Assembly: GCF_001457795.1 (NCBI RefSeq) | Contig: NZ_LN898209.1 | Span: forward strand, 1-64,000 | Reading direction: 5' to 3' | Source: Olsenella massiliensis | Lineage (GTDB): Bacteria; Actinomycetota; Coriobacteriia; Coriobacteriales; Atopobiaceae | DNA: 64,000 nt | Shown: positions 2,808 to 22,716 of the stretch, piece by piece | Layout of the letters: each line of letters begins with the position of its first letter | How positions within the stretch are numbered: the stretch's first letter is position 1 | Program-made: the position numbers and the translations under genes | Notes under the pieces: model-generated | The model's database searches: none | Told to the model about the DNA's origin: nothing | Seen by the model: only the letters and a program-made list of their open reading frames with translations

Positions 2808-4466
2808 ATGCTCGTGAACGACAAGATCTGGATGGCCCAGGGCGAGGACCCCTGCTTCCTTCTGCTTGGCCAGGCAAACCGACACGGCCTCATCGCCGGC
2901 GCCTCGGGCACGGGCAAGACCGTGACCCTCAAGGTCATGGCCGAGGGCTTCTCGCAGGCGGGGGTTCCCGTCTTCATGGCTGACGTCAAGGGCGACGTCA
3001 CCGGCATGGCCGAGGCCGGCCAGATGACCGACTTCATCCGGAAGCGCTGCCAGGACACCTTCGGGCTCGAGCCCGACCAGGTGAGCTTCGTGGGCTGCCC
3101 CGTGCGCGTGTGGGACATGCTGGGCGACGCGGGCCTGCCCGTGCGCATCACGATCAGCGACATGGGGCCCGTGCTCCTGAGTCGCCTGCTGGGTCTCACG
3201 GACGTGCAGGAGGGCGTCCTCACCATCGTGTTTAGGGTGGCGGACGACAACGGCCTGCTGCTCATAGACCTCAAGGACCTGCGCTCCATGCTCGCGTACG
3301 TGAGCGAGCACGCCAAGGAGTACCAGGCCACCTATGGCAACGTGTCCGCCGCCTCCGTCGGCGCCATCCAACGCGCGCTCATGGTCGTCGAGGACCAGGG
3401 CGGCGACGTCTTCTTTGGCGAGCCCAACCTGGATCTGGCCGACTGGTTCTGTCGCGCTCCCGACGGGCGCGGTTACGTGAACGTCCTCAACGCCGCCAGG
3501 CTCATCCAGACGCCGCAGATCTATGCCATGTTCCTGCTCTGGATGCTCTCGTCCCTCTTTGACGCCCTGCCCGAGGTGGGTGACCCCGACAAGCCCGCGT
3601 TCGTCTTCTTCTTTGACGAGGCGCACCTGCTCTTTGACGGCATGCCCAAGGCGCTCCAGGACAAGCTCGTGCAGGTCGTCAAGCTCATCCGCTCCAAGGG
3701 CGTGGGCGTGTACTTCATCACGCAGAGCCCGTCGGACATCCCCGACGAGGTGCTGGCGCAGCTTTCCAACCGCGTGCAGCACGGCCTGCGCGCCTATACG
3801 CCCGCCGAGCAGCGGGCGGTCAGGGCGGCGGCCGAGAGCTTCCGCGCCAACCCCGCCTTCGACAGCGTGCAGGCGCTTCAGGAGGTCGGCACCGGCGAGG
3901 CGCTCGTCTCGTTCTTGGACGAGGAGGGCGCTCCCTGCGTCGTGCAGAGGGCCAAGGTCCTCTTTCCCCAGTGCTCCATGGCGGCCGCCTCGGACGCCAC
4001 GATGCTGCAGGTGCAGGAGGCCCAGGCCGACCTCATGGGCAAGTACGGCGACGCCGTGGACCGTCAGAGCGCCTTCGAGCAGATTCAGGACCAGAAGGCC
4101 AACGACGAGGCGAGCGCCCGGCTTGCGGCCGAGCGCGAGGCTCTCGAGAGGGAGAAGGCCGAGTTCGAGGCCAAGCGTCAGGCCGAGGCCGACGCCGCCG
4201 CCAAGCAGAAGGAGAAGGACGACGCCAAGGCCGCCGCAGCCGCCCAGAGGGAACTGGAGCGTCAACGGCGTCAGGCCGAGCGCGACGCCCAGGCCGCCCT
4301 CAAGCGCCAGCAGCGTGAGGCGGAGCGCGTCGCCCGCGAGGAGGCGCGCCGCCGCGAGCAGCTAAGCAAGCAGGCGCAGCGCGTCGTCGGCTCCCTTTTG
4401 GGCACCTTCGGGCGCGAGGCCACGCGCCAGCTCACCCGCGGCCTGTTTGGGGCCCTCAGGCGATAG
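2808..4466 (+). CDS. HerA-like / DUF853 family ATPase with C-terminal coiled coil
   Basis: The 552-aa protein has a Walker A motif GASGTGKT (residues 31-38) and a Walker B with Asp270-Glu271 in FFFDEAHLLF, typical of HerA/FtsK-superfamily ATPases of the DUF853 (YjgR) group. ITQSPSDIPDEVLAQLSNRVQH matches the family C-terminal ATPase segment. Residues ~418-525 are Ala/Glu/Arg/Gln-rich heptads, a long charged coiled coil that may drive oligomerisation. No NurA-type nuclease is adjacent, so a role in end resection is not supported; the biological role is unknown. GAGGAG lies ~6 nt before the ATG. Confidence 0.85.
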   Translation: MLVNDKIWMAQGEDPCFLLLGQANRHGLIAGASGTGKTVTLKVMAEGFSQAGVPVFMADVKGDVTGMAEAGQMTDFIRKRCQDTFGLEPDQVSFVGCPVRVWDMLGDAGLPVRITISDMGPVLLSRLLGLTDVQEGVLTIVFRVADDNGLLLIDLKDLRSMLAYVSEHAKEYQATYGNVSAASVGAIQRALMVVEDQGGDVFFGEPNLDLADWFCRAPDGRGYVNVLNAARLIQTPQIYAMFLLWMLSSLFDALPEVGDPDKPAFVFFFDEAHLLFDGMPKALQDKLVQVVKLIRSKGVGVYFITQSPSDIPDEVLAQLSNRVQHGLRAYTPAEQRAVRAAAESFRANPAFDSVQALQEVGTGEALVSFLDEEGAPCVVQRAKVLFPQCSMAAASDATMLQVQEAQADLMGKYGDAVDRQSAFEQIQDQKANDEASARLAAEREALEREKAEFEAKRQAEADAAAKQKEKDDAKAAAAAQRELERQRRQAERDAQAALKRQQREAERVAREEARRREQLSKQAQRVVGSLLGTFGREATRQLTRGLFGALRR

Positions 4467-16241: not shown

Positions 16242-17441
16242 ATGCGCGTGCTGGTGAGCAGCTGCCTGCGAGGTGTCGCCTGTCGCTATGACGGCTCGGC
16301 AAAGCCCTCGGAGGCGGTGAGGGAGCTCTGCGGGAAGGTCGATGCCCTGGGGGTGTGTCCCGAGAGGGATGCCGGCCTTCCCGTCCCGCGTCCGCCCGCC
16401 GAGCGGCGGGCGGACGGGCGCGTGCTGCTTGCTGACGGCACGGACGTCACGGAGGCGTTCGAGCGGGGCGCGCGCGTGGCGCTGGAGCGGCACCTGCGCC
16501 GCGGGATGAAGGCGCCTCTCGCCGTTCTCAAGGCCAAGAGCCCCTCCTGCGGGTCGGGGCTCGTCTACGATGGAAGTCACACCGGTACGCTCGTCAGGGG
16601 GGACGGCGTGTTCGCGCGCCTCCTCAAGAAGGAGGGGGTCTGCGTGGTCAGCGAGAGGGACGTCGAGCTCTGCAAGCCGTCGGTCGAGCATCCCGTCGCG
16701 CTGGTCATGGGCACCGGCCTGGGACATCTTGCCCAGCTGGTCAAACCCGTGCGCCGCATCGACTACCATGACATCGACGGCTTCCCCGAGGACGCCGTGC
16801 CGGTGCAGGGGCACAGCTTCGAGGCCATCATCGGCACCGTGGACGGGGTGCCCGTGGTGGTCTATCCCGGCCGCATCCACCTGTATCAGGGCTACAGCGC
16901 CACGGAGGTGGCGTCGCTCGTGCGGCACGCCGAGCGCCTGGGATGCAGGGACATCGTGTTTGCCTCCGCGACGGGCGCCGTGCCCGGTAACGCCCAGGTG
17001 GGTCTGGGCATCATCACCGACCAGGTCAACCTCACGGGAAAAAATCCCCTGGCGGAGTGGGACGGCACGCGCGACGTCCAGACGCCCTTCGTGGGCATGA
17101 CGGACGCCTACACCCCCTACCTGCGCACCCTGGCGCGCGGTGTCGCCGATGACCTGGGCATCACGGTCGAGGAGGGGGTGCTCGCCGGCGTGCTGGGACC
17201 CTGCTTCGAAACGCCGGCCGAGGTCGCGGCGATGCGCCTCATGGGTGTGTCGTACGTGGGGATGTCCACCGTCAACGAGGTCATCATGGCGCATGCCCTG
17301 GGCATGAACGTGCTGGGCCTCACGCTGGCGGCCAACCAGTCGGGCGACCCTGACACGTCGCACGAGTCCGTGCTCGCGGAGGCCGAGCGTCATGCCGCTG
17401 ACTTTGAGCGCCTGGTGCGCGGGGTGCTCCGCCTGCTGTAG
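16242..17441 (+). CDS. DUF523 - purine nucleoside phosphorylase fusion protein
   Basis: Residues 1-~145 are a DUF523 domain (VSSCLRGVACRYDG; AVLKAKSPSCGSGLVYDG; GVFARLLKKEGV). Residues ~150-399 are a trimeric PNP/MTAP-type nucleoside phosphorylase: phosphate-loop-like GTGLGHL, GRIHLYQGYS, SATGAVPGNAQVG, GPCFETPAEV and VGMSTVNEVIMA. The PNP half should phosphorolyse purine nucleosides to base and (deoxy)ribose-1-phosphate; the DUF523 function is not established. The two halves read through without a stop, so this is a single polypeptide. It is the last gene before tRNA-Thr. Confidence 0.88.
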   Translation: MRVLVSSCLRGVACRYDGSAKPSEAVRELCGKVDALGVCPERDAGLPVPRPPAERRADGRVLLADGTDVTEAFERGARVALERHLRRGMKAPLAVLKAKSPSCGSGLVYDGSHTGTLVRGDGVFARLLKKEGVCVVSERDVELCKPSVEHPVALVMGTGLGHLAQLVKPVRRIDYHDIDGFPEDAVPVQGHSFEAIIGTVDGVPVVVYPGRIHLYQGYSATEVASLVRHAERLGCRDIVFASATGAVPGNAQVGLGIITDQVNLTGKNPLAEWDGTRDVQTPFVGMTDAYTPYLRTLARGVADDLGITVEEGVLAGVLGPCFETPAEVAAMRLMGVSYVGMSTVNEVIMAHALGMNVLGLTLAANQSGDPDTSHESVLAEAERHAADFERLVRGVLRLL

Positions 17442-17479
17442 CGTAAGGCGCGTGCTGCCGGGCGCGGGAGAATTCCCCC

Positions 17480-17509
17480 TTGCGCAGAGAAGATTGTTTC
17501 GGGTATCAT
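17480..17509 (+). promoter_or_regulatory. Promoter of tRNA-Thr
   Basis: TTGCGC (-35, 17480-17485) and TATCAT (-10, 17504-17509) are separated by 18 bp. Predicted initiation is ~35 nt before the mature tRNA 5' end. Confidence 0.6.
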
Positions 17510-17550
17510 CCTTCTGTTGCGCCGCTGGTTGACGTGACGCCATATGGAAC

Positions 17551-17626
17551 GCCAGCTTAGCTCAGTTGGTAGAGCACCGCTCTCGTAAAGCGGGGGTCAT
17601 CAGTTCAAGTCTGATAGCTGGCTCCA
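17551..17626 (+). tRNA. tRNA-Thr (anticodon CGU)
   Basis: The 76-nt gene folds as a complete cloverleaf. The acceptor stem GCCAGCT pairs with AGCTGGC. The D arm is GCTC-AGTTGGTA-GAGC, the anticodon stem CCGCT/AGCGG encloses the loop CTCGTAA with anticodon CGT at 17584-17586, and the T arm is ATCAG-TTCAAGT-CTGAT. The 3' CCA is encoded. It reads ACG, a frequent codon in this high-GC genome. No other tRNA was seen. Confidence 0.97.
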
Positions 17627-17635
17627 TGCAAACGT

Positions 17636-17670
17636 GCAGGCCGTCGGGGGTGTCCCGGCGGCCTGCTTTT
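17636..17670 (+). terminator. Rho-independent terminator of tRNA-Thr
   Basis: GCAGGCCG ... CGGCCTGC forms an 8-bp outer stem extended by inner GGGG/TCCC pairing and is followed by TTTT. It starts 9 nt after the tRNA CCA. Confidence 0.85.
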
Positions 17671-17729
17671 CATGAAACGGCCTTTTCCCTGGAGCCGCAC
17701 GTCCCGGCATCGTCGTTGCAGCCATGTTC

Positions 17730-17993
17730 CTATAGGTTTGAGAGCGGCGACGGCGCCCATTCCGGGATTCCTATAGGTTTGAGCGCTTGCCTGACGCAGA
17801 ACTATACGTTTGAGAGCCGCCTCGGTGCAGAGTTATACGTTTGAGAGCCCCCCTTGGGACAGAGCTATAAACTTGAGGATTCAAGAAGATTTTTACCTGG
17901 GAAAACGCGCCGCCGATTCCTCAAGCCTATAGGTGTGTCTCCCCGACGCTCGCAAACCTATAGCCGTGTGGCTCGCGGCTCGCAAACCTATAG
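17730..17993. repeat. Phased array of eight CTATAGGTTTGAG motifs in two opposed clusters
   Basis: Five forward copies start at 17730 (CTATAGGTTTGAG), 17771 (identical), 17802 (CTATACGTTTGAG), 17833 (TTATACGTTTGAG) and 17865 (CTATAAACTTGAG). Three inverted copies lie at 17920-17932, 17951-17963 and 17981-17993 (reverse complements CTATAGGCTTGAG, then CTATAGGTTTGCG twice). Start-to-start spacing is 41, 31, 31, 32, then 55 across the inversion, then 31 and 30 bp, about three helical turns. GAGAGC after the core and GCAGA before the next copy are partly conserved. The ~500-bp gap between tRNA-Thr and the ABC exporter otherwise holds no gene. It looks like a multi-site protein-binding region. Confidence 0.8.
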
Positions 17994-18043
17994 CTGCAAA
18001 GCAACAAAGAAACGTGTCGGGTGCGATGAGACGCGCCAGGTAG

Positions 18044-18090
18044 GCAAATGTCACAGTCAAGGCCCTAGGAAGGTCTTCTGTGACATTTGC
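18044..18090. promoter_or_regulatory. Perfect 13-bp inverted repeat before the ABC exporter gene
   Basis: GCAAATGTCACAG (18044-18056) and CTGTGACATTTGC (18078-18090) are exact reverse complements separated by 21 bp. The element lies 87 bp before the exporter start and after the phased array. It has no T-tract, so an operator pair or an mRNA stem-loop is likelier than a terminator. A TACCAT at 18105-18110 could be a -10 with GTGACA (in the right arm) as -35, at a long 19-bp spacing. Confidence 0.6.
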
Positions 18091-18176
18091 GCAGGCAGCT
18101 TGGGTACCATTCTCACCTGAAGAAGAACTGTAGACAGCGCAAGATTTTGTCCGCGCAGCGCGAGAGAGGCCAACCC

Positions 18177-20048
<1,872 letters not shown>

Positions 20049-21894: not shown

Positions 21895-22716
21895 ATGCTC
21901 AGGGCAAACTATCATACGCACACCGTGCTGTGCGACGGCGCGAACACCGCCGAACAGATGGTGAGAAGGGCCCTTGACCTTGGGTTTGAGCACCTGGGGT
22001 TCTCGGGTCACATGGACCCGGACATTCACATGGACTGGCCCGCCTACGTGAGCGAGATCGACCGGCTCAAGCGCGCCTATGGCGAGCGGATCGACATCCT
22101 GACGGGCGTCGAGCTTGACAACACGTTTGACCGGTCGTGCTGTCCGGGCGCCGAGTACGTCATCGGGTCAACTCACTTCCTGCCGGTCGCGACGGAGACG
22201 CCCATGAGCGTCGATGGCAGCCCTGAGACGCTCCGGCGGCTGTGCGACGAGTTCTACGGCGGAGACTGGTACCGGCTCACGCGCGCCTACTATGAGTTTG
22301 AGGCCCAGGTGCACGAGCGCACCGACTGCACCTTCGTGGGTCACTTCGACCTGGTGACGCGCTTCAACGACCAGATGCGCGCATTTGACGAGGGGGACCC
22401 GCGCTACCTCGCGCCGGCGCTCGAGGCCATGGAGCGGCTCGTGTCCGAGGGGGTCCCCTTCGAGATCAACTGCGGCGCGGTCAACCGCGGTCGCAAGCGC
22501 GAGCTGTATCCGCGCCATGAGCTGCTGCGGGCGCTGAACGACATGGGCGGGCAGATTCTGATCAACGCGGACGCTCACCAGGCGGAGAAGCTCGACGGGG
22601 GCTTTGACGTCGCGGTGCGCACGGCCCTGGCGTGCGGGTTCACGCACGTCAACATCCTGGCGCACGAGCCCGACGGCACGGTGGGCCTCAGGCAGCTGGC
22701 CCTTGACGCGCTGTAG
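21895..22716 (+). CDS. Histidinol-phosphatase, PHP family
   Basis: The 273-aa PHP-superfamily phosphoesterase shows YHTHTVLCDG at the N-terminus (metal ligands His7, His9), GFSGHMD, GVELD, GSTHFLP, VGHFDLVTRF and a C-terminal NADAHQ. This is the HisK/HisJ-type histidinol-phosphate phosphatase layout, which removes phosphate from L-histidinol phosphate in histidine biosynthesis. No other his biosynthetic genes are in the window, so another PHP substrate is possible. GGGAGGTCAC precedes the ATG. It lies 42 bp after the aminotransferase gene. Confidence 0.82.
   Translation: MLRANYHTHTVLCDGANTAEQMVRRALDLGFEHLGFSGHMDPDIHMDWPAYVSEIDRLKRAYGERIDILTGVELDNTFDRSCCPGAEYVIGSTHFLPVATETPMSVDGSPETLRRLCDEFYGGDWYRLTRAYYEFEAQVHERTDCTFVGHFDLVTRFNDQMRAFDEGDPRYLAPALEAMERLVSEGVPFEINCGAVNRGRKRELYPRHELLRALNDMGGQILINADAHQAEKLDGGFDVAVRTALACGFTHVNILAHEPDGTVGLRQLALDAL

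Follow-up and report, generated by a model that had tools for sequence, protein, structure and literature searches.

A helically phased, opposed repeat array of Olsenella massiliensis as a putative solitary copy of a nuclease-associated intergenic element

The array between tRNA-Thr and an ABC exporter

The window analysed here, a 64-kb stretch of the genome of Olsenella massiliensis, contains an array of eight copies of the motif CTATAGGTTTGAG, of which five are forward and the following three are inverted (Table 1). Both direct reading and a script gave this arrangement, and the first-pass annotation was therefore right to describe an opposed, two-cluster array. The spacings it reported, 31, 31 and 32 bp in one arm and 31 and 30 bp in the other, also hold, while it left out the first forward spacing of four turns and gave a range of 0 to 4 for the low divergence of the copies, which actually carry 0 to 3 mismatches. 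In the whole window the motif matches 11 times with at most 3 mismatches, against a mean of 3.26 in shuffled sequences, none of which (0/100) reached 11. The three matches outside the eight copies comprise one at 17927, which overlaps an inverted copy, and two stray ones at 21978 and 22290.

Upstream of the array lies a tRNA-Thr gene (17551-17626) with its own terminator (17636-17666), and downstream a gene (18177-20048) that was named by eye from its sequence as an ABC exporter. Gene calling by script placed no gene in the array, in agreement with the earlier description, and neither of the two mechanical ORFs found there (92 and 88 aa) was picked. A search of 17600-18200 for a sigma-70-like promoter found none. 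A conserved core, absent from the first-pass annotation, lies between the two arms, and cores of its type are common to arrays with other arms in this and related genomes. Directly past the array, at 18044-18090, is a perfect 13-bp inverted repeat, GCAAATGTCACAG / CTGTGACATTTGC, around 21 bp, and this exact pair occurs only once in the genome. A tRNA-Pro call by ARAGORN at 18034-18123 overlaps the repeat and is probably false because Rfam, at E values up to 1, gives no tRNA there.

Table 1. Features of the repeat array in the window (distances between motif copies are from start to start)
Feature	Position	Strand	Remark
Arm motif copy 1, CTATAGGTTTGAG	17730-17742	+	0 mismatches
Arm motif copy 2	17771-17783	+	0 mismatches; 41 bp (four turns) from copy 1
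Arm motif copy 3	17802-17814	+	1 mismatch; 31 bp from copy 2
Arm motif copy 4	17833-17845	+	2 mismatches; 31 bp from copy 3
Arm motif copy 5, inner forward	17865-17877	+	3 mismatches; 32 bp from copy 4
Conserved core, TACCTGGGAAAACG	17894-17907	+	16 bp past the inner forward motif
Arm motif copy 6, inner inverted	17920-17932	-	1 mismatch; 55 bp from copy 5
Arm motif copy 7	17951-17963	-	1 mismatch; 31 bp from copy 6
Arm motif copy 8	17981-17993	-	1 mismatch; 30 bp from copy 7
Whole array	17730-17993		Solitary element without an adjoining nuclease gene

Dispersed arrays with a common core and exchangeable arms

The search was extended to the whole genome (G000; 1.82 Mb in 13 contigs, 97% complete), where CTATAGGTTTGAG with at most one mismatch gave 90 matches, compared with 2 for the reversed control pattern. 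As counted from the match list, 85 of the 90 sit in 13 arrays of one design, and the random scatter that the first-pass annotation had named as speaking against its reading was not seen. The start of the inner forward copy and that of the inner inverted copy are 55 bp apart in all 13 arrays, and each array carries the ACCTGGG core, in the form ACCTGGG[C/A]AAA[C/T]G, at a constant place in the 42-bp interval that separates these two copies. The outer copies of both arms follow mostly in steps of 31 bp, while steps of 41 and 10 bp are also present and distances of 29-34 and 43 bp are seen in a few cases. Seven arrays are similar over much of their length, while the window array is among the six that have drifted; when these six are compared with the consensus of the seven, identity is 84% in the motif and 98% in the core against 53% in the spacer. 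The number of arm units varies at both ends of the arrays; it is their centre, not their ends, that is conserved. At the arms of the 13-array consensus, inspection by eye found no short palindrome with an adjoining GTAG (or CGTC) tag, and CTATAGGTTTGAG is not a tagged hairpin of the REP type. Two further features were noted around arrays. At L012 4086-9513, two arrays of this family enclose the gene of a 1370-aa protein with a Cna_B domain, and at L017 a 309-bp duplication (982-1290 and 3570-3878, 99.7% identical) ends about 75 bp before an array, one base just past it reading N.

None of the 13 arrays lies inside a called gene, and these dispersed extragenic copies adjoin unrelated genes. A fixed partner gene was rejected as an explanation because array neighbours scarcely match between genomes: a comparison of the two genes on each side between the arrays here and those of eleven other genomes yielded only two matches. 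The idea that arrays avoid divergent gene pairs was also rejected, given that 8 of 35 core sites in the related genome G002 lie between divergent genes. The position of the window array between tRNA-Thr and the exporter had suggested a control region of the latter, and the first-pass annotation had proposed a search of related loci for arrays preceding the exporter. The core pattern [ACGT]CCTGGG[AC]AAA[CT]G was found at 0 of 80 exporter-relative loci, and one of the 80, L091 of Olsenella phocaeensis, holds in the corresponding tRNA-Thr/exporter interval a different array with arms TTGTATGCGG and core ACCTGCGCAAATG. With the sister copies beside unrelated genes, a tRNA that has its own terminator and no promoter-like site, we reject an exporter operator and regard control of the exporter as extremely improbable.

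Cores of the same type are also found between other arms. Fourteen further core sites in this genome have opposed arms of two other families, F2 (10 sites) and F3 (4 sites), so that three arm families exist in this genome including that of CTATAGGTTTGAG. Among 60 genomes including this one, HCCTGGGCAAACGY was found in 27, with 57 hits in G002, 21 here, 8 in G028 and 1-4 in the rest, counts that include hits in coding sequences such as the L065 core inside a nuclease gene; the reversed control gave 4 hits over all 60 genomes. The exact CTATAGGTTTGAG motif, on the other hand, is absent or stray in the 59 relatives, eight of which have one or two isolated matches. The arms around intergenic cores differ by species, being AGAATGCGCTTTTCCGTGAGG in G002, of the CGTGGCTTTTGRC type in G031 and others elsewhere at the sites read. 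The core itself varies to ACCTGCG and AACTGGG, and visual inspection served to derive its general pattern. Spacings of 31 and 62 bp dominate among the arms in G000, G002 and G028, and those of 41 and 31 bp in G031, even though the motifs are unrelated. Because unrelated motifs keep the same whole-turn spacing, assembly of a protein on one face of the DNA is indicated rather than an RNA, and the earlier prediction of helically phased, opposed sites with the appearance of being bound by protein gains support.

Action as RNA, in the form of a small RNA, a terminator or a hairpin whose loop contains the core, should nevertheless be considered because the opposed arms can pair. The window array does fold better than shuffled sequences (z -3.5, with 0/200 shuffles as low), as opposed arms must. 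Against this reading, covariation of the inner arms is 0.086 compared with 0.069 in shuffles, 66 of 500 of which scored as high, and the spacings change in steps of about 10 bp, like DNA turns. Rfam at its curated thresholds reported nothing but one tRNA at twelve array loci, and at E values up to 1 the only hit above its threshold in 17400-18400 was the tRNA. Structured RNA was rejected on the grounds that no Rfam family matches and that the changes in the inner arms do not compensate one another more often than expected by chance, and we judge an RNA element very improbable.

Comparison of array sites with relatives covered 20 regions at five sites, of which only murB in G002 and the HAD-hydrolase site in G002 and G003 gave clean comparators. 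These two sites are empty in the relatives, where the intervals between the convergent genes are shorter: about 510 bp here versus 110 bp in G002 at murB, and about 600 bp here versus 170 bp in G002 and 140 bp in G003 at the HAD-hydrolase site, with the second flank taken as orthologous on visual inspection and the sequences too diverged to place the ends of the element. G004 has another element at murB, where the neighbour gene differs in G003 and G028, as it does at the HAD-hydrolase site in G004 and G028. At the L010 site five genomes each show a distinct gap in which no core was recognised, and past the left-hand gene of the window other genes are found in G002, G003, G004 and G020. At uvrB, the CTATAGGTTTGAG family occupies the site in this genome, another 31-bp-spaced family, whose copies are direct and not opposed on either side of a core-like site, occupies it in G002, and a nuclease gene flanked by arrays with a 21-bp spacing is present in G004.

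Phased and opposed sites at 13 scattered loci, with motif and core conserved over the spacers, could also be bound by a protein of chromosome organisation or partition with fast-drifting specificity, the association with nucleases described below being secondary. We consider this unlikely in view of the three arm families in one genome, the range of 0 to 57 copies in relatives, the empty sites and the arrays that flank nuclease genes on either side. The first-pass annotation had also proposed a partition or origin-like role, which agrees poorly with the lineage specificity of the motif, with 13-57 copies and with sites that are empty in relatives.

A nuclease family bordered by arrays

In G045, which belongs to another family of the same order, two inverted arrays flank a gene for a 353-aa protein, and a relative of this protein (22% identical) is encoded in the present genome at C11:102324-103469, between two F3 arrays. 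The family containing both genes is found in 46 of the 60 genomes and has, among others, invariant D, H, D, R and G positions. Pfam matches at E values up to 0.01 are weak, with 6 of 25 members matching MTES_1575 and 4 matching DUF559, the matches with displayed scores being under the Pfam cut-off. When the family profile was compared with the PDB, positions 239-297 matched 3r3p, “Mobile intron protein”, with an E value of 7.5e-5; five further matches with E values of up to 1 were weaker and partly unrelated. PDB 3r3p is the Vsr-like homing endonuclease I-Bth0305I, and the profile points to a Vsr-like nuclease domain in the associated gene family only. The two members tested had no match in NCBIfam or PADLOC. 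Viral carriage of the nuclease was rejected since no relative was recovered from viral contigs in two scans, each with a single protein. In a scan of the phylum, at least 53 of 149 genomes had a match to the profile at E 1e-6 or better, and those outside the order were mostly short.

Nuclease genes with inverted, core-bearing arrays on both sides were found in G045, G000 (F3), G019, G002 and G025. The association was measured as inverted arms common to the 500 bp before and the 500 bp after a gene, at 30 nuclease loci (the best per genome, among the matches listed) reduced to 25 by dropping five at contig ends. Arms of at least 12 bp were present at 11 of the 25 loci and of at least 13 bp at 10, compared with 0.6 and 0.3 in shuffles; among 99 controls, which were ordinary genes of the window and the exporter loci, the corresponding numbers were 4 and 0 (Fisher p 2e-6 at 12 bp or more). 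Arms of at least 12 bp within 500 bp were absent from the other 14 loci, one of which, in G002, does have arrays that the test missed and scored as a miss. The positives in G001 and G004 are near-identical and therefore not independent, which lowers the number of independent positives by one.

At 4 of 26 nuclease loci from six genomes, flanking sequence is found again at an array in another part of that genome. The four comprise the F3 locus here, which shares arms and core, a G002 locus, which shares its arms, and two in G032, of which one shares its arms and the other only the core with its flank. The G002 case, L250, is the sole nuclease locus of that genome linked to dispersed copies, and its arms differ from those of the 57-copy family, among whose arrays no nuclease gene was found. 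At four places in G002 (L196, L197, L202 and L206), arrays of the 57-copy family are accompanied, at a distance of about 210-240 bp, by solitary copies of the L250 family with the core ACTGGGCAAAYG.

The present genome encodes two full-length family members, and the one that is not flanked by F3, at C13:792109, has no recognisable array alongside. A connection of the CTATAGGTTTGAG arrays with C13:792109 through shared 12-mers was rejected, the matches being only scattered. No nuclease gene with arms of the CTATAGGTTTGAG family was found, and the link of the window array to a nuclease therefore rests on the common core and architecture.

Other genes were also seen between cores or repeats. F2-type cores (L174 4969 and 17105; C11:104968 and 117103) lie on either side of what by eye appears to be a type I-E CRISPR-Cas locus, and in G004 and G001 cores of the same orientation 5.2 kb apart (L170 2002 and 7207; L171 514 and 5720) enclose Abi_2 and AbiEii genes. 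Outside the order, 5 of 17 nuclease loci had flanking inverted hairpins of at least 13 bp, the controls being from Coriobacteriia, while in G194, inside the order, none of three nuclease loci had flanking inverted arms of at least 12 bp. Short hairpins of the same sequence border both sides of DUF559-type genes at L328, L333, L339, L340 and L343, and such hairpin-bordered genes outside the order possibly form a wider class.

A proposed mobile element and its closest known systems

Taken together, we think it probable that the window array belongs to an element dispersed between genes, of which it is a solitary and non-autonomous copy, and that this element is recognised by a Vsr/DUF559-like nuclease. 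Such a nuclease probably also spread the element in the past; the link to mobile DNA offered in the first-pass annotation is thereby supported. The element consists of an ACCTGGG-type core centred between opposed arms of 13-bp, family-specific sites three, or sometimes four, turns apart. A nuclease of the Vsr/DUF559-like family might bind the inner opposed arms as a dimer, with the core between its active sites, and the outer phased sites might lead to cooperative occupancy. Action of the nuclease at the core, followed by repair of the break, would then copy the element into new intergenic sites. The nuclease of the CTATAGGTTTGAG family may have been lost, may lie in unassembled sequence or may be one of the two members found, acting in trans. 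Where different families occupy the same sites, these might be hot spots, or old arrays might have been converted at the common core.

An alternative explanation of the dispersed, intergenic and opposed copies, similar ones of which border a nuclease gene, is that a known transposase mobilises them, either as REP/RAYT-type elements or as ordinary MITEs. MITEs and transposon ends are non-autonomous and can have several transposase sites and opposed arms, and in this description they resemble the present arrays, which differ in their conserved centre and variable number of outer units. A Y1 transposase was rejected as the mover, PF01797 giving 0 matches in G000; among eight genomes tested, four have a match and G000, G001, G004 and G031 have none. 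With a consensus that lacks a GTAG-tagged hairpin and is conserved at the centre and not at the ends, we hold this explanation to be quite improbable.

The proposed nuclease-recognised element can be compared with several known systems. Homing endonucleases insert a copy of the gene or intron that encodes them into an allele that is uninterrupted, whereas in the present case it is the repeats that have multiplied, and they flank the gene. Predicted endonucleases of the DUF559 and MTES_1575 families in Pfam resemble the present family through the matches of its members, but the displayed matches are below the cut-off and the entry lines that we consulted mention no repeats. A related nuclease domain occurs in the EDxHD (Vsr-like) enzyme I-Bth0305I, which according to a review (PMC3943268) binds in dimeric form to a target of nearly 60 bp; the inner opposed motifs here span 68 bp with the core between them. 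The element would work like the “REPtrons”, in which REP/BIME sequences, dispersed extragenic repeats often in opposed pairs, accompany TnpA-REP (RAYT) and cognate copies border the usually single-copy enzyme gene (PMC8266576). The present arrays share the dispersed, opposed extragenic repeats and the cognate copies bordering an enzyme gene, but the enzyme is Vsr/DUF559-like and not of the HUH type, this genome has no Y1 gene, and helically phased arms surround a common core in place of GTAG-tagged hairpins. None of the Coriobacteriia genera looked for was found in a REP survey (PMC3733652). No description of such arrays, or of repeats beside DUF559 genes, was found in open-licence full-text papers, which cover the literature in part and give weak evidence of absence, and this kind of repeat-and-nuclease system is apparently undescribed.

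We therefore put forward, tentatively and as a possibility somewhat short of likely, a categorically new system of Actinomycetota, in which Vsr/EDxHD-like nucleases would read family-specific phased arms around a near-universal ACCTGSG core and spread solitary intergenic arrays. The specificity for the arms would change quickly while the core was kept, which would account for differing families at the same sites in related species. If this is true, a second, unrelated class of enzymes would be accompanied by REP-like dispersed repeats in Coriobacteriia, a bacterial class of the gut and mouth. The common core with its swappable arms would then offer a natural series on how nucleases change their DNA target, and many actinobacterial DUF559-type proteins that lack a known function would obtain a substrate open to testing, namely the repeats beside their own genes.
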